Shown here: positions 6,103 to 57,285 of the stretch, one piece after another
Layout of the letters: each line of letters starts with the position of its first letter
How positions within the stretch are numbered: the stretch's first letter is position 1
NCBI RefSeq assembly: GCF_002797895.1
Contig: NZ_PGES01000001.1
Coordinates: forward strand, 2,542,001-2,606,000
From: Janthinobacterium sp. 67
Lineage (GTDB): Bacteria > Pseudomonadota > Gammaproteobacteria > Burkholderiales > Burkholderiaceae_D
Direction of reading: 5' to 3'
DNA: 64,000 nucleotides
Program-made: the position numbers and the translations under genes
Notes under the pieces: model-generated
What the model saw: the letters and a program-made list of their open reading frames with translations, nothing else
Databases searched by the model: none
What the model was told of the DNA's origin: nothing

Positions 6103-7233
6103 ATGAAACTGAACTTGTTGGCGCTGGCCGCCCTAACCCTGGCCGGCAGCCATGCGGCGGCGGCCACGCCGGGAGACACCTGCGTACAGGACTTGCGCGC
6201 CATGGCGCCCTTCCTGCTGGAAAACGACACGGGCGCGCGCCAGCACCTGGAACAAAAGGGACAGGCATATTTCGACCTGGCGCTGGCCACGGCCGCCACG
6301 GCGGCGGCCAACGCAGCCGATGGCAAGGCCTGCGATGCGATCCTGGAAAACTATGCACGCACGTGGCGCAAGGGCCACCTGCACGTAAAGCCAGGCAGCA
6401 CGCTCGATATCGCCAAACCGGCGCCGGCGCGCCCCGCCGCACCGGGACAGGCAGCGCCATCAAAGGCACCGGCGCTGCAGATATTGTCGGACTCGACTGT
6501 GCTGCTGACCTTGCCCAGCTTTCACGGCAGCTACCGGGCCGCCATGGCCAGCCTGCTCGAGACGCACCGCGCGGCCCTGGCGGCGCGTCCCAACTGGATA
6601 CTCGACGTGCGCCGCAACGGCGGCGGCAGCGACAGCACGTATACGCCGCTGCTGTCCTGGATCAGTTCGGATGAAATCGTCACGATGGGCGCCGAATGGC
6701 TGTCCACGCCAGCCAATATTGATGGCCAGGAAAAAGTCTGCGCGCTGCTGGCGCCCGGCGACGAGGCCTGCACCGCCTTTGCGGCCCAGGCCGTAGCGCA
6801 GATGCGCAGCGTCAAGCCTGGCCAATACGTGCCGCAGCAAAGCGGCGGCACCATCAGCTATACCCGCCTGGACACGCCGGAGCCGCGCCGGCCGGCGCGC
6901 GTGGCCATACTGGTCGACCGCGACTGCGCCAGCTCCTGCGAGGAATTCCTGCTGGCGGCGCGGCAAAGCTTTCATGTGAAATTAATCGGCCGCAACAGCT
7001 ATGGCGCACTCGATTATTCGAACATGCGCCTGCACATCCTGCCGTCGGGCCAGCGCCACCTGCAATACGCCACCTCGCGCTCGGCCCGCCTGCCGCAACT
7101 GCAGGTGGACCTGGCCGGCATCATGCCCGACATCTATTTGCCGCCACCGAAGGACGAGGTGGGCCGCGCCGAGGAAGTGCTGCGCGTGCAGCGCTGGCTG
7201 GAAGGCGGCACGCTACGCCCGGACAATATTTGA
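6103..7233 (+). CDS. Secreted S41-family (tail-specific type) peptidase
   Basis: 376 residues with a clear signal peptide (MKLNLLALAALTLAGSHAAAA), so periplasmic or secreted. The C-terminal half has the S41/C-terminal processing protease fold signature: LDVRRNGGGSDS near residue 170 and VDRDCASSCEEFLLAA near residue 275, the latter holding the expected catalytic serine. No PDZ domain is evident; the N-terminal 120 residues are helical and unassigned. The start at 6103 is supported by AGGGGA 7 bases upstream; a longer frame exists but lacks a ribosome site and the signal peptide would then be internal. Substrate unknown. It is transcribed towards cheA with a shared terminator between them. Confidence 0.82.
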   Translation: MKLNLLALAALTLAGSHAAAATPGDTCVQDLRAMAPFLLENDTGARQHLEQKGQAYFDLALATAATAAANAADGKACDAILENYARTWRKGHLHVKPGSTLDIAKPAPARPAAPGQAAPSKAPALQILSDSTVLLTLPSFHGSYRAAMASLLETHRAALAARPNWILDVRRNGGGSDSTYTPLLSWISSDEIVTMGAEWLSTPANIDGQEKVCALLAPGDEACTAFAAQAVAQMRSVKPGQYVPQQSGGTISYTRLDTPEPRRPARVAILVDRDCASSCEEFLLAARQSFHVKLIGRNSYGALDYSNMRLHILPSGQRHLQYATSRSARLPQLQVDLAGIMPDIYLPPPKDEVGRAEEVLRVQRWLEGGTLRPDNI

Positions 7234-7248
7234 CACCGCTGGCGCCAT

Positions 7249-7280
7249 TAAAAAAGCCCGCTATATCTAGCGGGCTTTCT
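7249..7280. terminator. Bidirectional terminator between protease and cheA
   Basis: A perfect 11-bp stem AAAGCCCGCTA/TAGCGGGCTTT (7253-7263, 7268-7278) with loop TATC, an A-run before it and Ts after it. It can end transcription of the plus-strand protease and the minus-strand cheA. Confidence 0.88.
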
Positions 7281-7297
7281 AACGAATCAAGCAAGCC

Positions 7298-9184
7298 TCA
7301 GGCAGCTAAACGCACGCTACCCCGGCACCCATCCATCAGGAACGACAGGCCCACGACCAGCACCAGCTCGCCTTCGGCCGAGCGGGCCGTGCCCGTGATG
7401 CCTTCCACAGTGATGGCCGTCATCGGCTTGATGACCAGGTCGGCCGTGCCATCGACGGCTTCCACGGCCAGAATGTACGGCTGTGGCGCGGCGACGACAA
7501 TGCCGACGCGCTCGCTGCACGATTCGTAGCCCAGCGAGCCGGCCAGCGACCGCACGGGCAATGGCCGGCCCTGGTCTTTCAGCACGGGCGCGCCGCCCAC
7601 TTCCATGAAGGTTTCCGGCAATTCGACGACGCGCTGCACCACGGCCATCGGCAGCGCCAGCGCGGCGCCCGAGGTCGAGACCAGCATGGTCGGCACGATC
7701 GACAGTTCGATCGGCAGGCGGATGGCGAACTTCGTGCCCTTGCCCAGCATGGATTCGATGTGGATGGCGCCGCGGTTTTTCTCCACGGCCGTCTTCACCA
7801 CGTCCATGCCCACGCCGCGCCCGGAAACGCTGGAGGCGACTTCCTTGGTCGAGAAGCCCGGCAGGAACACCAGCTGGAAGCATTCGTCGTTGCTCAACTG
7901 CGCGTTTTCGCTGATCAAGCCCTTTTGCTGGGCCTTGCTGCGCAGGAAGACAGGGTCCATGCCCTTGCCGTCATCCTGCAGCACGATCATGACGCTGTTC
8001 GCTTCCTGCCATGCCTTGAGTGAAATATACGATTTGGCGGGCTTGCCTGCGGCCAGGCGCGCTTCCGGCGATTCCACGCCATGGTCGAGCGAGTTGCGCA
8101 GCATGTGCACGAGCGGATCGTACAGGCTGTCCACGACGACGCGGTCGACTTCCGTCTCCGCGCCTTCGATGGTCAGCTCGACATCCTTGCCCAGGTCTTT
8201 CGCCAGTTCGCGCACGAGGCGCGGAAACTTCTGGAACAGACGGCCGACGGGCTGCATGCGCGTGGCCAGGGTGGCCCGCTGCAGTTCCGTCGAGTAGCGC
8301 GAAGCGCGTTCCAGGGTTTCCGCCAGGGTCGCCATCAGGGTGGCGGCCTGGCCTTCGAATTTGAATTGCAGCAAGCGCTCGAGCAGCACGGCGGCCTGGT
8401 TGGCGGCCTGTACGGATTCGCCGGCCACTTCCAGCAACGCGTCGAGCTTGACGGCGTCGACGCGGATGCTGTCTTCCTTGACGGGCGCGGCATGGCGCAC
8501 TTCCGGACGCTCTTCGCGCCGTTCGTTGCCATCCCAGGCCTTGGCGGCCGGTTTGGCGGCGGCAGCGGCAGGCGCGGCGGCCACGGCGGCAGGCGCAGCG
8601 GCGACGGCGGACACGGGTGCGGCGGCGATCTGGCTAGCGGCCGGCACGACGGCGTTGTACATGGCTTCCCAGTCCAGGCCATCGGCGCTGGCGGTGGACA
8701 CGGCGGCGGCAGGCGCCGCAGCAGGAACTTCGACGGTCTCGACAACGGGCACGGCCACTTCCGCCACCACGGCGGCGGCAGGCGCAGGCGCATCCATGCC
8801 CTTGCCTTCGATGGCGTTCGTCAGGATGTGTTCCAGCTCTTCCGGCATGGCCGGCAAGCTTTCCGGCGCGGAACCATTGGCCAGTTCCGTCAGCTGGTCG
8901 GCCACGAAACCGGACGCCTGCAGCGCCGCCTCGATGGCGATCGGGGTGACGGGCGCGGCGCCCGTGCGCAAGGCGTCGAACAGGTTTTCCGTCAGATGGC
9001 AGGCCGCCACCAGCGCGGGCAAGCCCATGAAACCGGCGCCGCCCTTGATGGTGTGGAAGGAACGAAACACGGCATTCAGTGTTTCCTTGTTGTCAGGATC
9101 GCGCTCGAGGCGCAATAAGTGCTCTTCAACATTAACTGCAAGATCCATCGCCTCGACGACGAAATCCTTGAGCATATCGTCCAT
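7298..9184 (-). CDS. cheA: CheA-type chemotaxis histidine kinase
   Basis: 628 residues. Domains in order: HPt/P1 with the phosphorylated His44 in FHTIKGGAGF (1-110); an Ala/Pro-rich linker (about 135-235) where a P2 response-regulator-binding domain would be expected but none is obvious; the P3 dimerisation helices; a P4 ATPase with N-box NSLDHGVE and glycine boxes DDGKGMD and GRGVGMDVVK; and a C-terminal CheW-like P5 domain. It phosphorylates CheY/CheB in response to receptor arrays. It starts on the A of the cheZ stop (TAATG), so the two are translationally coupled. No CheY, CheW or receptor gene is adjacent. Confidence 0.93.
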   Translation of the reverse strand: MDDMLKDFVVEAMDLAVNVEEHLLRLERDPDNKETLNAVFRSFHTIKGGAGFMGLPALVAACHLTENLFDALRTGAAPVTPIAIEAALQASGFVADQLTELANGSAPESLPAMPEELEHILTNAIEGKGMDAPAPAAAVVAEVAVPVVETVEVPAAAPAAAVSTASADGLDWEAMYNAVVPAASQIAAAPVSAVAAAPAAVAAAPAAAAAKPAAKAWDGNERREERPEVRHAAPVKEDSIRVDAVKLDALLEVAGESVQAANQAAVLLERLLQFKFEGQAATLMATLAETLERASRYSTELQRATLATRMQPVGRLFQKFPRLVRELAKDLGKDVELTIEGAETEVDRVVVDSLYDPLVHMLRNSLDHGVESPEARLAAGKPAKSYISLKAWQEANSVMIVLQDDGKGMDPVFLRSKAQQKGLISENAQLSNDECFQLVFLPGFSTKEVASSVSGRGVGMDVVKTAVEKNRGAIHIESMLGKGTKFAIRLPIELSIVPTMLVSTSGAALALPMAVVQRVVELPETFMEVGGAPVLKDQGRPLPVRSLAGSLGYESCSERVGIVVAAPQPYILAVEAVDGTADLVIKPMTAITVEGITGTARSAEGELVLVVGLSFLMDGCRGSVRLAA

Positions 9185-40569: not shown

Positions 40570-41349
40570 ATGGCCAGCAACCAGCATTTCCCCGCCGTTT
40601 CCGACGTCCTGCCCTATCCCGTGTATTTCCGCCTCGACGATTACCACGCGCACCAGCAATTCGATTACCAGAGCCATCCGTGGGGACAGCTCACGTATTG
40701 CTCCACAGGCGTGATGGAAATCATGGTGGCGGGCCAGCGCTACCTGTCGCCGCCCCAGTACGCCGTATGGATACCGCCCGAGACCTTGCACGACGGCTAT
40801 ATCCGCCAGGATGTCGTATTTCACTCCGCCTACATCGACGCCAGCCTGTGCGCGCAGCTGCCGGCCCAGCCGTGCGCGCTGGTATTGAGTCCCCTGCTCA
40901 AGGCCATACTCGGCGACTTCGCCGCGCGCAACGTCACCACGCCCGCCACCGAAGCCGACCAGCGCCTGGCGCAGGTGCTGGTCGACCAGCTGCGGCTGGC
41001 GCCGTGCAGCCGCAACTACCTGCCAGGCAGCGACGAGCCCGTCATCGCGGCGCTGCTGACGGCCCTGCAGGCGGAGCCGGGCAGTAACCGCTCACTGGCC
41101 GAGTGGGCCGCGCAACTGCACGTGACCGAGCGCACCCTGGCGCGCCGCTGCCAGCGCGAACTGGGCATGCCGTTCGGCGAATGGCGCCAGCGCCAGCGCT
41201 TCCTGGCCGCCCTGCCCCTGCTGGAAAAAGGCGACACCGTGCAGGCGATCGCGCTGGAACTGGGCTACAGCACGGCTTCCGCCTTCATCGCCATGTTTCG
41301 CCGCCAGGGCGGCGGCACGCCCGACCAGTTCCGCCGCGGCTTGCGCTGA
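40570..41349 (+). CDS. AraC-family regulator with cupin sensor domain
   Basis: 259 residues: an N-terminal cupin-type AraC-binding domain (HPWGQLTYCSTGVMEIMVAG ... WIPPETLHDGYI) and C-terminal double helix-turn-helix (LAEWAAQLHVTERTLARRCQRELG; DTVQAIALELGYSTASAFIAMFRR). Resembles the NimR/YeaM group, which controls a neighbouring efflux gene; here that would be the divergent EamA exporter. Effector unknown. Confidence 0.9.
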   Translation: MASNQHFPAVSDVLPYPVYFRLDDYHAHQQFDYQSHPWGQLTYCSTGVMEIMVAGQRYLSPPQYAVWIPPETLHDGYIRQDVVFHSAYIDASLCAQLPAQPCALVLSPLLKAILGDFAARNVTTPATEADQRLAQVLVDQLRLAPCSRNYLPGSDEPVIAALLTALQAEPGSNRSLAEWAAQLHVTERTLARRCQRELGMPFGEWRQRQRFLAALPLLEKGDTVQAIALELGYSTASAFIAMFRRQGGGTPDQFRRGLR

Positions 41350-41430
41350 AAAAGCGGATCGGCTTTGTCATGGTTTGTCATATGGGGATGCTAAAATTCA
41401 AACATCTTTCCAGAGAGCAAAAGGACGCGC

Positions 41431-43893
41431 ATGAACCCCAGCACCGAGACGGCCACCGATATCCAGGGCAGCGAGGACATGCCCCAGGCATCCGCAATGG
41501 CCGTGACGGCGCCAGCGCCCATCAAGCTCGACAAGGAAGAGATACCGACGGTGCTGGGCAAGCTGCGCACCTTGGTGCAGGACAAGACGCGTTTCGAACC
41601 GCACGACATCACGCCGCTGGACGAGGAAGACGTGCTGCAGGAGTTTTCGCTGCAAGCGAACTACGCGCTCGAGGCGCGCTTCGAGCAGCGTGTTATCAAT
41701 GGCTATTTCACGCCAGCGGGCAATGACTGCCGCTGTGGCTCGCACGAGGTGGGAGCGCTCGCTCACGCGCAGGAGAAGGAAAGGCTGCGCCGCGCGGCGG
41801 GCAAGCTCGACAATGTCTTGCGCCAGCCAGGCCAGGCCTACAACGGCGTCGAGGCGGGCGTCTACCTGCCGCACGCCGTCAAGTACTGGCACCTCGATAC
41901 CTGCAGCAACTGCACCGGCAGCGGCCGCATCAGCTGCCACACCTGCTACGGCGCGACGACGGAAACATGCTGGAACTGCCACGGCGGGCGTACCGTCAGC
42001 TGCGACGGCTATGGCTGCTACGGCAGCGGCAAGGTGTCGTGCTCGTATTGCAGCGGCAGCGGCACCGTGTCAGAGCAAGTCACCGATTACATCACGGTGC
42101 AAGTACCCACTACCACCTACAGCAACGGCAGCTCGCACACCAGCTATCACAGCGAAACGCGGCCCCAGTACCGCACCGAATATCGCTCTTGCTACCATTG
42201 CAGCTACGGCAAGGTCAGCTGCAACACTTGCCACGGTTCCGGCAACATCAATTGCGGCACCTGCCGCGCCAGCGGCAGTGTCACTTGCCGCACCTGCAGC
42301 GGCGTGGGCGACTTGCGCTGCAACCCGTGCGACGGTTCCGGCAAGGTGGGCAAGGCGGCATGGGTCGATGTGCACGTGGCGCCTAGCTACAGCGTCAGCC
42401 TGCCCAAGCAGGCGCCCGACGACGCGCGCCGCATCCGCGACAAGGAGAGCGTGCACTCACTGGCGGCCATTGCCAGCAGCCTCGCCCTGGCGAAAGTGAG
42501 CATTTACAATGAAGACCAGCCGCAGGAAGTCGACGCCCTGTATGCGGCCAAGCTGCGCATCGTGCGCCTCGACGCCGCGTGCAACGCGGAAAAGCACCAT
42601 CTGGTGGCGTACGGCACGGACTTGCGCTGGCTGACCCTGGACGACATTGTGGAAAAGCTGCTGCGCGGCGACCTCAAGGCGCTCAGCGACGCGCTGGCCG
42701 GCAGCGCCGACGACGGCCTGTTCTCGGCCCATGTACAGGGCTTACTCACGCCGCTGCGCGACGTGGCCGCCTCGGAACTGAATGCGGACGTGATCGAATC
42801 GGTGCTCAGCGGCGACGCGGACCACGCGCACGTCGATGTCGTCTCCGCCGACTATGCCAACAATGTGCGCACCTGCGTGCTCGGCGCCTTGCGCCAGGTC
42901 TACACGCGGCTGGCCAAGCAATTCTGGTGGAAAAGCGCGCTGGCCGCGCTGGCCGCCGCCATCGCCACCTGGTTCTTCGCCGGGCGCGGTGCGGCCGCCG
43001 TCGCCGGCTTGCTCGTCACGGGCGCCGGCTACTGGCTGTTCAACCGCAAGGTCAAGGCTGTGCTGAGCGAAGCGCTGGGCGGCGAGCGGCAAGCCGAACG
43101 GGCCATGGGCATCGCCGGCAAGGGACGCCGCAACCAGCTGGCGCAGGTGCTGATCCTCGCGCCCGCCAGCCTGGCCGTGCTGGCCGCCAGCTATGGCTTG
43201 CCCGTGCGCGTGCGCCCGGCTGCTCCACCGCCGCAAACGGCCATGACCTCGGCGCCCGTTGCGCCCCATGCGCCAGCCATCGTGCAGCAGGATGCAAGCA
43301 GCGCCAAGGCCGTCAAGCTGTACGAAAATGGCGACAAGGCGCAGGCGCTGGCCATGCTGGAAAGCCTGGTCGGCAAGGGCGACGCCGGTGCGTATGGCCT
43401 GTATGGCTGGATGCTGCTGATGGGCGAAGGCAAGCCCGGCCCCGTCACCGCGCCAACGGCGCAGCAGCGGCAAGCGCGCCAGGTGGCCGCCAAGCCCCTG
43501 ATCGGCAAGGGTCTCGTGAAGAACGACAGCTATGCGCTGACGGCGAAAGGCGTGATGCTGGCCGAAGGCTGGCAGGAACCGCGCAACATGGCGCGCGGCC
43601 TCGATTTGCTGAAACAGGCCGCGAACAAGGGCAATGCGCAAGCCATGCACTTATTGGGCCTGTACCACGTGCGCGGCTACCAGATTCCCGTCAACCACAA
43701 GGAAGCGCGCAAATGGTTCACCCTCGCCGCCGACAAGGGCAGCGCGGGCGACATCTACAACCTGGGACTGATGGACTGGGAAGGCGCGGGCCTGGCGCGC
43801 CCCGACCGCGCCAGCGCCATGCAGCGCTGGAAGATCGCCGCCGCCATGGGAGAAGAACGGGCCATCAAGGCGGTGGCGCAAGGCAAACCTTAA
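41431..43893 (+). CDS. Multi-domain protein: DnaJ-like zinc modules, membrane helices, Sel1 repeats
   Basis: 820 residues, family not recognised as a whole. Residues 1-155 are variable with a GNDCRCGSHEVGAL cluster. Residues about 160-213 and 254-307 each hold five Cys pairs of DnaJ zinc-finger type (CSNCTGSG, CHTC, CWNC, CSYCSGSG; CYHC, CNTCHGSG, CGTC, CRTC, CNPCDGSG). They are split by a Thr/Ser-rich insert. Residues 310-490 are a soluble, mostly helical region. Two to three membrane helices follow (about 498-535 and 571-588). Sel1-type repeats (AQAMHLLGLYHVRGYQ, DIYNLGLMDWEGAG) fill the last 200. AAAGGA precedes the ATG. Its stop overlaps that of the convergent nitrobindin-like gene. Role unknown; zinc-dependent protein binding at the membrane is plausible (inference). 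Confidence 0.85.
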   Translation: MNPSTETATDIQGSEDMPQASAMAVTAPAPIKLDKEEIPTVLGKLRTLVQDKTRFEPHDITPLDEEDVLQEFSLQANYALEARFEQRVINGYFTPAGNDCRCGSHEVGALAHAQEKERLRRAAGKLDNVLRQPGQAYNGVEAGVYLPHAVKYWHLDTCSNCTGSGRISCHTCYGATTETCWNCHGGRTVSCDGYGCYGSGKVSCSYCSGSGTVSEQVTDYITVQVPTTTYSNGSSHTSYHSETRPQYRTEYRSCYHCSYGKVSCNTCHGSGNINCGTCRASGSVTCRTCSGVGDLRCNPCDGSGKVGKAAWVDVHVAPSYSVSLPKQAPDDARRIRDKESVHSLAAIASSLALAKVSIYNEDQPQEVDALYAAKLRIVRLDAACNAEKHHLVAYGTDLRWLTLDDIVEKLLRGDLKALSDALAGSADDGLFSAHVQGLLTPLRDVAASELNADVIESVLSGDADHAHVDVVSADYANNVRTCVLGALRQVYTRLAKQFWWKSALAALAAAIATWFFAGRGAAAVAGLLVTGAGYWLFNRKVKAVLSEALGGERQAERAMGIAGKGRRNQLAQVLILAPASLAVLAASYGLPVRVRPAAPPPQTAMTSAPVAPHAPAIVQQDASSAKAVKLYENGDKAQALAMLESLVGKGDAGAYGLYGWMLLMGEGKPGPVTAPTAQQRQARQVAAKPLIGKGLVKNDSYALTAKGVMLAEGWQEPRNMARGLDLLKQAANKGNAQAMHLLGLYHVRGYQIPVNHKEARKWFTLAADKGSAGDIYNLGLMDWEGAGLARPDRASAMQRWKIAAAMGEERAIKAVAQGKP

Positions 43894-44537
43894 GCTGCCG
43901 CCGCCAGTGCCTGCAAGGCCATCGGGTTCGGCGTCGGCTCGGCGATTTTCGTCAGCAGGTTGCGGTCAGTGTGGTGGAACGGTTCGTCCTTGCCGCGAAT
44001 GAGCATGACCGTGTCCTCGTCGTAGCCCCACGTGCCATCGGCGTGGATATCGACCTTGATCCGGTATTCGACGGTGGTGAACGCGTGTTCGAGGAAGGGA
44101 TTCGAGCAGATGCCGTACGCCGTCGAATCGCGCTTGGCCACCAGTTCGAAACTGGTGGCGTCGGCCGTCGTCGTGCCGGACGCCATGGCGATCTGGCCGC
44201 GCGGGATGGCCAGGGTCTGGATCACGGCGCCCGTGGCCGGTTCCCACAGCCAGTAGCCGACCTGCTCATGATACGTCTTGACTTGATCCGGCTTGGTGAT
44301 GTGGATGTAGTAGCGCAAGCCGTAGAACAGTTGCGGGCCGTTGGTGACGGGGTCGATCGGCTGCAGTTCGATGCGCTCGACGAAGGCCTGCTTGCGCGGG
44401 CCGTCCGCTTTCGGCTTGACGTCCAGGCCGCGCGTGCCCGTCCAGATGCCGGCCATGCCCGTCAAGGGGCCCAGGTTGTTCAGGGTGTGCACGTCGGCGG
44501 ACGGCTCGGTGTAGATATCTTCGGGAAAATCGCTCAT
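43890..44537 (-). CDS. Nitrobindin-like heme-binding beta-barrel protein
   Basis: 215 residues, a fatty-acid-binding-like beta-barrel of the THAP4/nitrobindin group (formerly DUF1794). The family start motif appears as LGPLTGMAGIWTGTRG; IPRGQIAMASG and TTVEYRIKVD form later strands. Members bind heme and can interact with NO/peroxynitrite, but the heme-ligating histidine cannot be assigned with certainty. The start at 44537 is preferred over the longer frame (44594). The minus-strand TAA and the plus-strand TAA of the preceding gene share the palindrome TTAA. Confidence 0.82.
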   Translation of the reverse strand: MSDFPEDIYTEPSADVHTLNNLGPLTGMAGIWTGTRGLDVKPKADGPRKQAFVERIELQPIDPVTNGPQLFYGLRYYIHITKPDQVKTYHEQVGYWLWEPATGAVIQTLAIPRGQIAMASGTTTADATSFELVAKRDSTAYGICSNPFLEHAFTTVEYRIKVDIHADGTWGYDEDTVMLIRGKDEPFHHTDRNLLTKIAEPTPNPMALQALAAAA

Positions 44538-44596
44538 GCGGAAGTCTTCAAAATGGGGCAACAGTGCTTGCCGCCATTGTAAGACGCAGGGCACTC

Positions 44597-52466: not shown

Positions 52467-54644
52467 ATGATCAAGAAGAAGAACATCGAATTCGTCCGCG
52501 TCACCCACTTGCGCGGCCCCAACATCTGGACTTACCGCCCGGTGATTGAAGCCTGGGTCGACATCGGCGAACTGGAAGACTATCCATCCAATACCCTGCC
52601 CGGCCTGTACGAGCGCCTGGTGGCGTGGCTGCCCGGCATGATCGAGCACCGCTGCGGCGTGGGCGAACGGGGCGGCTTTTTCGAGCGCCTGCGCGAAGGC
52701 ACGTGGTCGGCCCACATCCTCGAGCACGTGGTGCTGGAGCTGCAAAACCTGGCAGGCATGCGCACGGGCTTCGGCCAGACGCGTTCGACCAGCCAGCGCG
52801 GCGTCTACAAGATGGCCTTCCGCACGCGCGAAGAGCACGTGGGCCGCGCCGCCCTGGCCGCCGCGCGCACACTGCTGATGGCCGCCATCAACGATGAAGC
52901 CTACGACCTGGAAGCGGCCCTGGCGCCGCTGCGCGACATGGTCGATTCGCGCTGCCTGGGCCCGAGCACGGCCAGCATCGTCGATGCGGCCACCGAGCGC
53001 CGCATTCCTTCCCTGCGCCTGAACGACGGCAACCTGGTGCAACTGGGCCACGGCGCCGCGCAGCGCCGCATCTGGACGGCCGAAACGGACCGCACCAGCG
53101 CGATTGCCGAAGGCATCGCCAGCGACAAGGATCTCACCAAATTCCTGCTCAAATCGTGCGGCGTGCGCGTCCCTGAAGGCAGCCTGGTGCGCAGCGCCGA
53201 AGCGGCCTGGGAAGAAGCGCAGGACATCGGCGTGCCCGTCGTCGTCAAGCCCTATGACGGCAACCATGGCCGCGGCGTCTCGCTGAACCTGATGACGGAA
53301 GCGGACGTGAAGGCCGCCTACGCGCTGGCCGCGCGCAAGGGCGACAGCTCGGCCGTGCTGGTGGAAAGCTTCATCACGGGCGACGAACACCGTCTGCTCG
53401 TCGTCGGCAACAAGCTGATCGCGGCCGCCAAGGGCGAGTCGCTGTGGGTCGATGGCGACGGCACCTCCAGCGTGCTGGAACTGGTGAACGCGCAGATCAA
53501 TATCGACCCGCGCCGCGGCGAAGGCGAAGACTTCCCATTGGGTACCGTCAAGCCGCACGAATCGGGTGAAATCGTGCTGGAACTGCAGCGCCAGGGCATG
53601 ACCGCCCTGTCCGTGCCGCAGGCGGGCCAGAAAGTGCTGATCCAGCCGAACGGCAACGTGGCCATCGACGTCACGGACGACGTGCATCCGTCCGTCGTGC
53701 ATGCGGCCCTGCTGGCCGCGCGCGTGGTCGGCCTGGACATCGCCGGCATCGACCTGGTCACCACCGACATCACGCGTCCGCTGGAAGAGCAGCGCGGCGC
53801 CATCATCGAAGTCAATGCCAGCCCTGGCCTGCTGGCGCACATCAAGCCGGGCGTGGGCCAGCCCCGCCCTGTCGGCGCGGCCATCGTCGACCACCTGTTC
53901 GCGCCCGAGGAAACGGGCCGCATTCCGCTGATCGGCGTGACGGGCACGCGCGGCGCCAGCCTGATCGTGCGCATGCTGTGCAAGCTGCTCAACCTGTCGG
54001 GCCTGCACACGGGCGCCGTCTGCAGCGAAGGCATGTATCTGGACCAGCGCAGAGTCGTCAGCAGCGATTGCGTGAACTGGGACGCGGGCCAGCGTTTGCT
54101 GCTCAACCGCACCGTGCAGACGGCCCTGTTCGAGAGCAATCCGCGCATGATCCTGGCCGAAGGCCTGGCCTACGACAAATGCCAGGTCGGCATCGTCACG
54201 GACATGGGCAGCCTCGATAGCGTCAAGGATTTCGACGTGCTGGATGAAGCGGGCCTGTACAAGGCCGTGCGCAGCCAGGTCGACGTGGTGGTGCTGACGG
54301 GCGTGGCCGTGCTCAACGCCGCCAACGCGCACGTGCTGGAACTGGCCGAACTGTGCGACGGCACCGTGACCCTGTATGCGCAGGATGGCGGCTTGCCAGC
54401 CATCGCGGCGCAACTGGCCGCCGGCCAGCGCGCCGTCTTCGTGCGCGGCAACCACATCGTGCTGGCCGAAGGCGGCATCGAAACGGTGTTGCTGTGCCTG
54501 GACCTGCTGAAACCGGCCACGGCCGGCAATGTCGACAGCGTGCTGGCCGTCGCGGCCGCCGCCTGGGCCATGAATCTGCCCGTCGATCTGATCTGCGCCG
54601 GTTTACGTACCTTCGACGCGGCTCCCGGCTGCATCGGCAACTGA
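52467..54644 (+). CDS. Shortened cyanophycin synthetase paralogue (CphA2/CphA' type)
   Basis: 725 residues against 856 for its neighbour. The N-terminal domain and the ATP-grasp domain are intact (DKDLTKFLLKSCGVRVPEG; PVVVKPYDGNHGRGVSLN; IIEVNASPGLLAHIKPG). In the Mur-ligase-like half the P-loop is GTRGASL (residues 493-499) in place of GTNGKTT, and the C-terminal ligase domain is missing. It cannot perform the second, Mur-ligase-dependent step alone. CphA2-type enzymes of this shape polymerise beta-Asp-Arg dipeptides; that activity or a helper role for CphA is inferred. 70 bases precede the full cphA. Confidence 0.88.
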   Translation: MIKKKNIEFVRVTHLRGPNIWTYRPVIEAWVDIGELEDYPSNTLPGLYERLVAWLPGMIEHRCGVGERGGFFERLREGTWSAHILEHVVLELQNLAGMRTGFGQTRSTSQRGVYKMAFRTREEHVGRAALAAARTLLMAAINDEAYDLEAALAPLRDMVDSRCLGPSTASIVDAATERRIPSLRLNDGNLVQLGHGAAQRRIWTAETDRTSAIAEGIASDKDLTKFLLKSCGVRVPEGSLVRSAEAAWEEAQDIGVPVVVKPYDGNHGRGVSLNLMTEADVKAAYALAARKGDSSAVLVESFITGDEHRLLVVGNKLIAAAKGESLWVDGDGTSSVLELVNAQINIDPRRGEGEDFPLGTVKPHESGEIVLELQRQGMTALSVPQAGQKVLIQPNGNVAIDVTDDVHPSVVHAALLAARVVGLDIAGIDLVTTDITRPLEEQRGAIIEVNASPGLLAHIKPGVGQPRPVGAAIVDHLFAPEETGRIPLIGVTGTRGASLIVRMLCKLLNLSGLHTGAVCSEGMYLDQRRVVSSDCVNWDAGQRLLLNRTVQTALFESNPRMILAEGLAYDKCQVGIVTDMGSLDSVKDFDVLDEAGLYKAVRSQVDVVVLTGVAVLNAANAHVLELAELCDGTVTLYAQDGGLPAIAAQLAAGQRAVFVRGNHIVLAEGGIETVLLCLDLLKPATAGNVDSVLAVAAAAWAMNLPVDLICAGLRTFDAAPGCIGN

Positions 54645-54714
54645 GGCAAAGCAGCACTCAAGCCCGGCCAGGACGGCCGGGCCCACAAGAACACAACAGG
54701 ATTACGGTTTAATT

Positions 54715-57285
54715 ATGGAAGTATCTCGCGTACGGGCCTTGCGTGGCCCTAACCTCTGGAGCCACGACACCGCCGTGGAAGCCATTGTTTCCTGCACCAC
54801 GCAGGAACTCGACATCGCCCAGCTGCCCGGCTTCGAAGCCCGCCTGCGCGCACTCTTTCCGCAACTGAGCCCGCTGCAACCGCTGGGCAACTACAACGCC
54901 GCGCCGATGGCGCAGGTGCTGGAACTGGCGGCGCTGGGCCTGCAGGCGCAAGCCGGCTGCCCCGTCACCTTCAGCCGCACCACGCCGACCCTGGAAACGG
55001 GCATCTTCCAGGTCGTCGTCGAATACTCGGAAGAAGCCGTCGGCCGCCTGGCTTTGGCCCTGGCGCAGCAGCTGTGCCGCGCCGCGCTCGACGATGCGCC
55101 GTTCGACCTGGCCGGCGCCCTGCAGCAGTTGCAGGAACTCGATGAAGACGTGCGCCTCGGTCCATCGACGGGCGCCATCGTCAACGCCGCCGTGGCGCGC
55201 AACATCCCGTTCCGCCGCCTGACCGAAGGCAGCCTGGTGACGTTCGGCTGGGGCAGCAAGCAGCGCAAGATCCAGGCCGCCGAAATGGACGGCACCAGCG
55301 CGATCGCCGAAGCCATCGCGCAAGACAAGGAACTGACCAAGAAGCTGCTGGACTCGGCCGGCGTGCCCGTACCGCAAGGCCGCGTCGCCATCGATGCGGA
55401 CGATGCCTGGGCCGCCGCCTGCGAGATCGGCCTGCCCGTCGTCGTGAAGCCAAAAGATGGCAACCAGGGCAAGGGCGTCACCGTCAACGTCACCACGCGC
55501 GAACAGCTGACGGCCGGCTTTCTCGCGGCGCAGGAATTCCGCGACGATATCCTCGTCGAACGCTATCTGCCGGGCCACGATTTCCGCTTGCTCGTCATCG
55601 GCAACAAGATGGTGGCGGCGGCTCGCCGCGACCCGCCGCAAGTGGTGGGCGACGGCCAGCATACGGTGCGCGAACTGGTCGACCAGGTCAACCTGGATCC
55701 GCGCCGCGGCAGCGGCCACGCCACATCGCTGACGAAAATCCGCTTCGACGACATCGCCCTGGCCAGCCTGGCCAAGCAGGGCTACGTGGCCGACTCCGTG
55801 CCGCCGGTCGGCCAGCGCGTCATCCTGCGCAATAACGCCAACCTGTCGACGGGCGGCTCGGCCACCGACGTCACCGTCGACGTGCACCCGGAAGTGGCGG
55901 CGCGCGCCGTCGCGGCCGCACACATGGTGGGCCTGGACATCTGCGGCGTGGACGTGGTCTCCGACAGCATCCTGAAACCGCTGGAAGAGCAGAACGCCGG
56001 CATCGTGGAAGTGAACGCCGCACCGGGCCTGCGCATGCACCTGGCGCCGTCGTTCGGCAAGCCGCGCCCTGTGGGCGAAGCCATCATCGCCGCCATGTTC
56101 GCCGAAGGCGACGATGGCCGCATTCCCGTCGTTGCCGTCACCGGCACCAACGGCAAGACCACCACCGTGCGCCTGATCGCCCACCTGCTCACCACGTCGG
56201 GCCTGCGCACGGGCATGACCAACACGGATGGCGTGTACATCGAAGGACGCCAGATCGACAGCGGCGACTGCAGCGGCCCGCGCAGCGCGCGCAACGTGCT
56301 GCTGCACCCGGACGTGGACGCGGCCGTGTTCGAGACGGCACGTGGCGGCATGCTGCGCGAAGGCCTGGCTTTCGACCGCTGCCAGGTCGCCGTGGTGACG
56401 AACATCGGCGCGGGCGACCACCTGGGCCTGAACTACATCACTACCGTGGAAGACCTCGCGGTCCTGAAGCGCGTGATCGTGCAGAACGTGGCTGACAGCG
56501 GCGTGGCCGTGTTGAACGCCACCGACCCGGCCGTGGCCCGCATGGCCAAGAATTGCAGCGGCACGGTGACCTTCTTCGCCGCCGACAAGACGCATCCCGT
56601 AATGGCCACGCATCGCGCGCAAGGCAACCGCGTCGTGTACGTGGAAGACGGCAAGCTGGTCGCGGCGCAAGGCAAGGAACGCCACGAAATCGCCCTGTCG
56701 CAGGTGCCGATCACGCGCAACGGCGCCATCGGCTTCCAGGTCGACAACGTCATGGCCTCCCTGGCCGCCGCCTGGGCCGTGGGCCTGGACTGGAAAACCA
56801 TCGCGCTGGGCTTGAAAACCTTTGCCAATGAAGCCGACAATGCGCCGGGCCGCTTCAACGTGTTCGATTACAAGGGCGCCACCCTGATCGCCGACTACGG
56901 CCACAATCCGGACGCCATCCTGGCACTGGTGCAGGCGGTGGAAAGCATGCCGGCCAAGCGCCGCTCGGTCGTCATCAGCGGCGCCGGCGACCGCCGCGAC
57001 GAAGACATCCGCCAGCAGACGGAAATCCTTGGCGCCGCCTTCGACGACGTGCTCCTGTACCAGGACCAGTGCCAGCGCGGCCGCGCCGACGGCGAAGTCG
57101 TGGCATTGCTGCGCCAGGGTTTGAACGGCGCCAAGCGCACCAGCCATATCGATGAAATCAACGGCGAATTCGTCGCCATCGACAAGGCCCTGGCACGCCT
57201 CGGCGAAGGCGACCTGTGCCTGATCCTGATCGACCAGGTGGAAGAAGCGCTGGCGCACATCGCCAAGCGCGTCGCCGAAGCCTAA
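54715..57285 (+). CDS. cphA: Cyanophycin synthetase
   Basis: 856 residues. Makes the storage polymer cyanophycin (poly-Asp backbone with Arg side chains) from Asp, Arg and ATP. Domains: an N-terminal domain (1-160), an ATP-grasp domain (about 215-470: PVVVKPKDGNQGKGVTVN, IVEVNAAPGLRMHLAP) and a Mur-ligase domain with intact P-loop VTGTNGKTTT at 476-484, FETARGGMLREGL and DYGHNPDAI. The start MEVSRVRALRGPNLW matches the family. It is the second gene of the pair and ends at a strong terminator. No cyanophycinase gene is in the window. Confidence 0.96.
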   Translation: MEVSRVRALRGPNLWSHDTAVEAIVSCTTQELDIAQLPGFEARLRALFPQLSPLQPLGNYNAAPMAQVLELAALGLQAQAGCPVTFSRTTPTLETGIFQVVVEYSEEAVGRLALALAQQLCRAALDDAPFDLAGALQQLQELDEDVRLGPSTGAIVNAAVARNIPFRRLTEGSLVTFGWGSKQRKIQAAEMDGTSAIAEAIAQDKELTKKLLDSAGVPVPQGRVAIDADDAWAAACEIGLPVVVKPKDGNQGKGVTVNVTTREQLTAGFLAAQEFRDDILVERYLPGHDFRLLVIGNKMVAAARRDPPQVVGDGQHTVRELVDQVNLDPRRGSGHATSLTKIRFDDIALASLAKQGYVADSVPPVGQRVILRNNANLSTGGSATDVTVDVHPEVAARAVAAAHMVGLDICGVDVVSDSILKPLEEQNAGIVEVNAAPGLRMHLAPSFGKPRPVGEAIIAAMFAEGDDGRIPVVAVTGTNGKTTTVRLIAHLLTTSGLRTGMTNTDGVYIEGRQIDSGDCSGPRSARNVLLHPDVDAAVFETARGGMLREGLAFDRCQVAVVTNIGAGDHLGLNYITTVEDLAVLKRVIVQNVADSGVAVLNATDPAVARMAKNCSGTVTFFAADKTHPVMATHRAQGNRVVYVEDGKLVAAQGKERHEIALSQVPITRNGAIGFQVDNVMASLAAAWAVGLDWKTIALGLKTFANEADNAPGRFNVFDYKGATLIADYGHNPDAILALVQAVESMPAKRRSVVISGAGDRRDEDIRQQTEILGAAFDDVLLYQDQCQRGRADGEVVALLRQGLNGAKRTSHIDEINGEFVAIDKALARLGEGDLCLILIDQVEEALAHIAKRVAEA

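Follow-up and report, generated by a model that had tools for sequence, protein, structure and literature searches.

In DnaJ and the other type I J-proteins, four cysteine pairs bind two zinc ions, pair 1 together with pair 4 and pair 2 with pair 3, and this zinc region is an insert in a beta domain. Chloroplasts contain zinc proteins of this kind without a J-domain, for example ZnJ2 with four motifs and the membrane-anchored FIP with two (excerpts of PMC5818400 and PMC5915565). Metacaspase operons with sigma factors are already known as well: according to excerpts of Asplund-Samuelsson and others 2012 (PMC3501461), Myxococcus, Ralstonia and other bacteria have metacaspase operons that contain sigma-70 genes, and 6.0% of the bacterial metacaspases contain Sel1 repeats. 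These excerpts name no zinc, membrane or Sel1 partner, and in the main text 'DnaJ' and 'zinc finger' occur zero times. Cleavage of a sigma inhibitor by a protease is described for RseA/DegS and for DiCASP, where the TPR-CHAT protease Csx29 acts in the Csx30/CASP-sigma system; excerpts of PMC10028731 name no membrane-bound zinc partner. Among titles and abstract openings, which included few subscription papers or preprints, no description of a caspase partner combining zinc, membrane and Sel1 parts was found. To our knowledge, neither a partner nor a trigger is known for most bacterial homologues of caspases.

The protein considered here is encoded in a window of 64,000 nucleotides from the 6.4 Mb genome of Janthinobacterium sp. 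67, and had been described as an 820-residue protein in an earlier note on this DNA. This description holds: the open reading frame (41431-43893, plus strand) contains no internal stops and is intact, conserved and constrained. Comparison with five relatives, two of which (L023 and L047) gave identical figures, yielded dN/dS values of 0.24-0.27 for the whole gene and of 0.13-0.47 region by region. Every compared region is therefore constrained within the genus, and the gene is under purifying selection. The features of the locus are the following.

40570..41349, plus strand: AraC-family regulator, upstream neighbour, 81 bases from the gene (Pfam HTH_18 and AraC_binding over cut-off)
41420..41425, plus strand: AAAGGA, Shine-Dalgarno-like, ATG 5 bases further on (sequence)
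41431..43893, plus strand: gene of the 820-residue membrane protein that has a doubled region of Cys pairs and ends in Sel1 repeats (ORF, conservation, dN/dS)
41551..41880, plus strand: N-terminal alpha/beta domain, residues about 41-150, TRF 53-55 invariant in 22 of 22 aligned sequences (block means 78-94 pLDDT)
41902..42051, plus strand: Cys block 1 (residues 158-207), five pairs at a period of 11, the fourth being CxxxxC (motif positions)
42064..42189, plus strand: Ser/Thr/Tyr-rich insert, predicted long beta-hairpin 212-231 / 234-253, turn SNGS (AlphaFold, block means 44-61 pLDDT)
42190..42330, plus strand: Cys block 2 (residues 254-300), five CxxC at a period of 10-11 (motif positions)
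42343..42840, plus strand: middle domain (about residues 305-470), in which strands are followed by helices (AlphaFold)
42922..43038, plus strand: hydrophobic residues 498-536, probably two membrane helices, break near 518 (AlphaFold, hydrophobicity)
43141..43197, plus strand: third membrane helix, about 571-589 (AlphaFold, hydrophobicity)
43198..43290, plus strand: Pro/Ala-rich linker, residues 590-620, pLDDT below 50 from 594 (AlphaFold, composition)
43291..43890, plus strand: Sel1-repeat domain, residues 621-820, without Cys, presumably periplasmic (Sel1 match)
43890..44594, minus strand: THAP4-like heme-binding beta-barrel protein, convergent neighbour (PF08768 over cut-off)

The named loci with a relative number 19, and all of them belong to Janthinobacterium. 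The AraC gene stands beside it in 16 of them and the THAP4-like gene in 15, and an EamA-type gene is found nearby in all 19. Elsewhere in the window (52467-57285) lie two consecutive genes on the same strand, which we take to resemble a pair of cyanophycin synthetases.

Ten Cys pairs form two blocks of five, at residues 158/161, 169/172, 180/183, 191/196 and 204/207 and at residues 254/257, 264/267, 275/278, 286/289 and 297/300. Nine of them are CxxC and the fourth (191/196) is CxxxxC, and by eye only five of the ten continue as a strict CxxCxGxG. The ten CxxC modules proposed from the letters alone are thus confirmed as ten pairs in a 5+5 arrangement, not as ten copies of one motif. In 2000 shuffles of the same protein, CxxC occurred 0.65 times on average and at most five times, compared to nine here. 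Neighbouring pairs are spaced by 11, 11, 11 and 13 residues in block 1 and by 10, 11, 11 and 11 in block 2. The Ser/Thr/Tyr-rich insert reported between the blocks is indeed present.

Among 22 aligned sequences, some of which are apparently the same gene fetched twice (e.g. L023/L047, L025/L049), 18 have 5+5 pairs and three have 4+4. Both Cys of four block 1 pairs and of three block 2 pairs are invariant in all 22, the pair 254/257 is kept in at least 90%, and the gap between the blocks is 27-50 residues long in 21 of them. L059 lacks the hairpin insert and has eight pairs, which the largest-gap rule splits into 3+5. The equal pair counts, the near-equal spacing and the predicted hairpin between the blocks lead us to infer a nested pairing, and the equal blocks would be explained better by a single nested zinc hairpin than by a pair of DnaJ fingers. 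According to the alignment, the pairs that the 4+4 forms lack would not be coordinated with each other under nesting, a placement that repeat slippage makes ambiguous. Judging from its sequence, the Cys-rich arm probably binds zinc; the model PF25112 (zf-AtTam37 zinc region) scored 19 bits, which is under its cut-off of 27. If nested, the doubled array would show how a DnaJ zinc hairpin lengthens into a rod.

Ten Cys pairs could also constitute a thiol or zinc sensor that releases zinc on oxidation or metal stress and passes the change through the membrane to the Sel1 tail, and two relatives (L051 and L057) possess an extra N-terminal zinc-ribbon-like Cys set, under Pfam cut-offs. However, a non-systematic look at the neighbourhoods revealed no recognisable redox or metal genes except, in the window, the THAP4-like heme protein encoded convergently to the gene, and we regard a sensor of this type as improbable.

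The AlphaFold model of the whole protein has a mean pLDDT of 69.9 and a pTM of 0.40. Confidence is mostly good for the N-terminal, middle and Sel1 parts; the block means are 24-40 pLDDT for the Cys blocks and 44-61 for the hairpin at the tip. A model of the relative L054 (mean pLDDT 61.7) again placed a hairpin between the Cys blocks, and a Foldseek search of the PDB with this model gave no match at E up to 0.001. Strands at residues 152-157 and 305-323 lie on either side of the Cys region, so that this region resembles an insertion into a beta domain. The middle domain has the lowest dN of the compared regions (0.07-0.11). Beyond the Cys blocks, G395, L410, L411, D414 and L418 are invariant in all 22 aligned sequences. 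No Pfam or NCBIfam model reached its cut-off over the Cys, middle or membrane parts, in agreement with the earlier note, which did not recognise the architecture as an established family.

Similarity to DnaJ is confined to the CxxC pairs, half of which are followed by xGxG, and to weak partial matches (1exk, E 0.0021; NCBIfam PRK10767, 23.2 bits compared to a cut-off of 338). In contrast to DnaJ with its four pairs, the 820-residue protein contains ten with a period of 11, together with membrane helices and a Sel1 tail. The absence of a J-domain was correctly noted before: Pfam gave no J-domain model at E up to 1 (four families listed). The DnaJ central zinc domain PF00684 reached its cut-off in none of the ten family members scanned (best score 14.2 compared to 32.7 bits). 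Since both tests fail, the protein is not a member of the DnaJ family, and to call its ten modules 'DnaJ-type' was too strong. In alignments, BSD2 shares the period of 11 between neighbouring pairs, and EMB2737 shares the separation of the pairs by a long insert; sequence matches to these two proteins were at chance level (E 0.7-2.4). ZnJ2 and FIP differ by their smaller motif numbers, the whole group differs by being plastid proteins, and we know of no Sel1 repeats in BSD2/ZnJ2, FIP or EMB2737. In its mode of action the protein would be most like a membrane-fixed, J-less DnaJ-type zinc protein.

By Pfam, the protein is a member of the Sel1-repeat family (two stretches, 34.4 compared to a cut-off of 30.7 bits), and L051, L058 and L045 also score over the cut-off. 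The Sel1-type repeats named in the earlier note are therefore real in this protein; they are missing from several relatives. In contrast to Sel1-repeat proteins, the repeats occupy only the last quarter of the sequence, and this tail is optional, being absent in six listed relatives (L050, L052-L054, L057, L059).

Hydrophobic windows were found at residues 498-538 and 567-594, and a further one (340-359) lies inside the middle domain. The stretches assigned to the membrane earlier are thus present, while the count of two helices should be revised: because residues 498-538 have room for two and AlphaFold interrupts the first stretch at residue 518, three helices are likelier. The Sel1-less proteins L052-L054 suggest the same three-helix order, as by eye a hydrophilic stretch of about 30 residues separates their first two hydrophobic ones; the helices of the L054 model comprise residues 401-459, 471-505 and 521-540. 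The two proposed cytoplasmic stretches contain 4 and 8 Lys/Arg and the other two 1 and 2, as judged by the positive-inside rule, and the last 200 residues are Cys-free in all nine Sel1-bearing proteins examined. We infer that the N-terminal part is cytoplasmic and that the Sel1 repeats are periplasmic.

The family sample of 294 genomes contained 28 with a match at E up to 1e-20, namely 24 of the 27 same-genus (Janthinobacterium-like) genomes, three of genus g11 and one of g18. Besides the genome under study, the order sample (399 genomes) added three (L057, L058, L059) and the phylum sample (398 genomes) none. Around the sporadic carriers, further searches found 1 of 61, 1 of 12, 1 of 32 and 3 of 17 genomes, always the known carriers. 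Outside the genus, relatives are sporadic and belong to five other genera. In the larger surveys, at most three or four candidates were scored per genome, and relatives may therefore have been missed. The class sample (321 genomes) yielded, besides the own genome, a free-standing Cys-pair ORF that was not counted as a relative. This ORF (L064 1498-1860, minus strand), from another family of the class, encodes 120 residues that are nearly all CxxC modules, without a membrane or Sel1 part.

In the three g11 genomes a Sel1-less relative has other neighbours, and a Rhs/PAAR-type cluster adjoins it in the two examined (G159, G138). At L070 these neighbours are an ankyrin protein, a DcrB-domain protein, a Rhs/PAAR protein and an Imm26-type gene, and L073 looks alike by eye, which would fit a protein that serves interbacterial competition systems as an accessory or on the immunity side. 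Such a role is very improbable, as this setting is limited to the Sel1-less 4+4 form, the cluster lies on the opposite strand, and no genes of this kind were seen next to it in L068, in L069 or in the window. Several genes of the g11 cluster (L070 56-8831, L073 1-8534) resemble one another and stand in a row; a single one was scanned and is Imm26-type.

The gene adjoins caspase and sigma/anti-sigma genes in two genomes, G291 and G568, and not in the window. In G291 (L069), four genes follow each other on one strand: an ECF sigma gene (7073-7666; Pfam regions 2 and 4 over cut-off), an anti-sigma-like gene (7647-8294), a gene for a secreted caspase (PF00656, 8294-9658) and, last, the relative of the 820-residue gene, which extends up to 12224. 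The first three overlap by a few bases, and the relative begins 40 bases after the caspase. In G568 (L068), the caspase gene (minus strand) is divergent from genes for a sigma region-4 protein (22.2 bits, under the cut-off of 25.7), an anti-sigma-like protein and the relative, in this order. In G251, which belongs to the genus of G291, sigma, anti-sigma-like and caspase genes lie together, with no relative of the 820-residue gene adjoining. The label 'anti-sigma-like' is based on position, on a membrane segment seen by eye, on a zf-HC2 match under cut-off in G251 and on similarity between copies (G253 and G568, E 1e-15; G253 and G000, E 4e-4); in this comparison the G291 copy had no match.

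The own genome (G000) encodes a related caspase at G000:C1:4.37 Mb, 1.8 Mb from the 820-residue gene. It is 31-32% identical to the caspases of G291 and G568, and the active-site His and Cys and the tail align. Two genes beside it, which we take for sigma-like and anti-sigma-like, had no Pfam match; the former is similar to a G257 gene (E 9e-9). The Sel1-like tail of the caspases scored over the Pfam cut-off in two of six scanned (G253, G546) and under it (30.7 bits) in G568 (29.9), G291 (17.3) and G251 (16.5). The tail of the own caspase has no Pfam Sel1 match, yet aligns with those of the related caspases.

In the 27 same-genus genomes, with three and five candidates scored per genome, both genes were found in 22, the 820-residue gene alone in two (G201, with a Sel1-less form, and G267), neither in three (G212, G250, G290) and the caspase alone in none. 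The three genomes that lack both could be one lineage. Counted without regard to descent, 24 of 25 Sel1-bearing carriers (23 same-genus genomes, G291 and G568; the exception is G267) and one of six Sel1-less carriers have this caspase type. The one Sel1-less carrier with it is G546, where the two genes lie on small separate contigs; the five without the caspase are G201, G138, G159, G181 and G674 (64% complete). When all or nearly all candidates were scored in 20 chosen genomes, a full-length or nearly full-length caspase of this type was detected in G000, G291, G568, G546, G251, G223, G257 and G263, a caspase in two pieces in G237, and none or short partial matches in the other 11. G223, G251, G257 and G263, all from the genus of G291, were not among the matches of the 820-residue gene in the family survey. 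In the single-contig genome G237, the 820-residue gene and the caspase gene are both broken into two frames (L048, L055, L100, L114, L128), which may be real decay or an assembly error.

These data suggest that the 820-residue protein is an unrecognised partner in a system that combines a stress-response switch with a secreted caspase-like protease. With a probability of roughly 0.4, we favour an inner-membrane adaptor whose zinc arm in the cytoplasm is coupled to a Sel1 platform in the periplasm that is linked to the caspase. The 'membrane-tethered adaptor' of the earlier note is thereby retained; the neighbours in G291 and G568, from two other genera, point to a caspase/ECF-sigma module and away from general ERAD-like quality control. 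The cytoplasmic N-terminal part would be a small alpha/beta domain carrying one inserted, very long zinc-stabilised hairpin, with the Cys pairs nested as 1-10, 2-9, 3-8, 4-7 and 5-6, up to five zinc ions and a tip formed by a beta-hairpin. This part would be followed by three membrane helices and, in the periplasm, by the Sel1 repeats. The protein may be an accessory part of an envelope-response module whose other members are an ECF-type sigma factor, an anti-sigma-like membrane protein and the secreted caspase-like protease with its Sel1-like tail. If the Sel1 tail docks the caspase or a caspase substrate, and if a client in the cytoplasm is held or sensed by the zinc arm, the protein would couple the cytoplasmic state to periplasmic proteolysis. 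By analogy with DiCASP and RseA/DegS, the caspase could act on the anti-sigma protein, which for the present system is a guess.

The adaptor proposal starts from the ORF, the motifs, the conservation, the neighbourhoods and the co-occurrence, and adds to them putative zinc binding, nested pairing, topology, docking and signalling. In its favour are the gene orders of G291 and G568, the related caspase of the own genome, the co-occurrence, the equal blocks, the hairpin in two models, the charge bias and the Cys-free tail. Against it count that the linkage comes from two genomes, that the gene is unlinked to the caspase cluster in its own genome and mostly has the AraC/THAP4-like setting in the genus, and that the g11 neighbours differ. 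Sel1-bearing G267 without a full-length caspase, G546 with a caspase and a Sel1-less form, and G223, G251, G257 and G263, with a caspase but no match of the 820-residue gene in the family survey, are further exceptions. The weak Sel1 scores of the caspases, the own sigma-like genes without a Pfam match, the low pLDDT of the Cys region, the non-partner losses in the 4+4 forms and the 3+5 split of L059 also weigh against it. Moreover, Cys-less ZnJ2 retained holding activity (excerpt of PMC5818400); the Cys region therefore need not be the part that holds a client.

The main alternative is a free-standing, membrane-tethered holdase or quality-control factor, whose zinc arm binds unfolded or nascent cytoplasmic chains and whose Sel1 tail binds envelope partners, the caspase link being incidental. 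The gene and the caspase lie apart in Janthinobacterium, a full-length caspase of this type is missing in five of the six Sel1-less carriers, and excerpts on ZnJ2 (PMC5818400) and FIP (PMC5915565) report or propose that J-less DnaJ-type zinc proteins of chloroplasts are independent of Hsp70. A holdase is possible but somewhat doubtful, given the neighbourhoods in G291 and G568, the association of the Sel1-bearing forms with the caspase and the lack of DnaJ family models at cut-off.

A more specific version of the preferred adaptor is unlikely as a whole: the protein would be the fourth, transmembrane component of a sigma / anti-sigma / periplasmic caspase module, in which a zinc rod with up to five stacked zinc sites, derived from a lengthened DnaJ-type hairpin, reads the cytoplasmic state and signals through the inner membrane to a Sel1 platform that recruits or gates the caspase. 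As a conserved membrane-spanning protein that is tied in two genera to a run of sigma, anti-sigma and caspase genes, it is a testable candidate partner of the caspase, and the same tie could explain why these caspases have Sel1-like tails.

The own caspase gene also adjoins a lipoprotein-like gene and a membrane-protein gene, relatives of which lie near the caspases of G291, G251 and G223. This pair, which has no Pfam match, recurs near caspase clusters (L077 8944-11449, L069 873-3333); relatives of both genes occur in L141 and of the membrane gene in L140. Near the G291 cluster, on the other strand, L069 5847-6878 encodes a double-zinc-ribbon protein with a TPR end.
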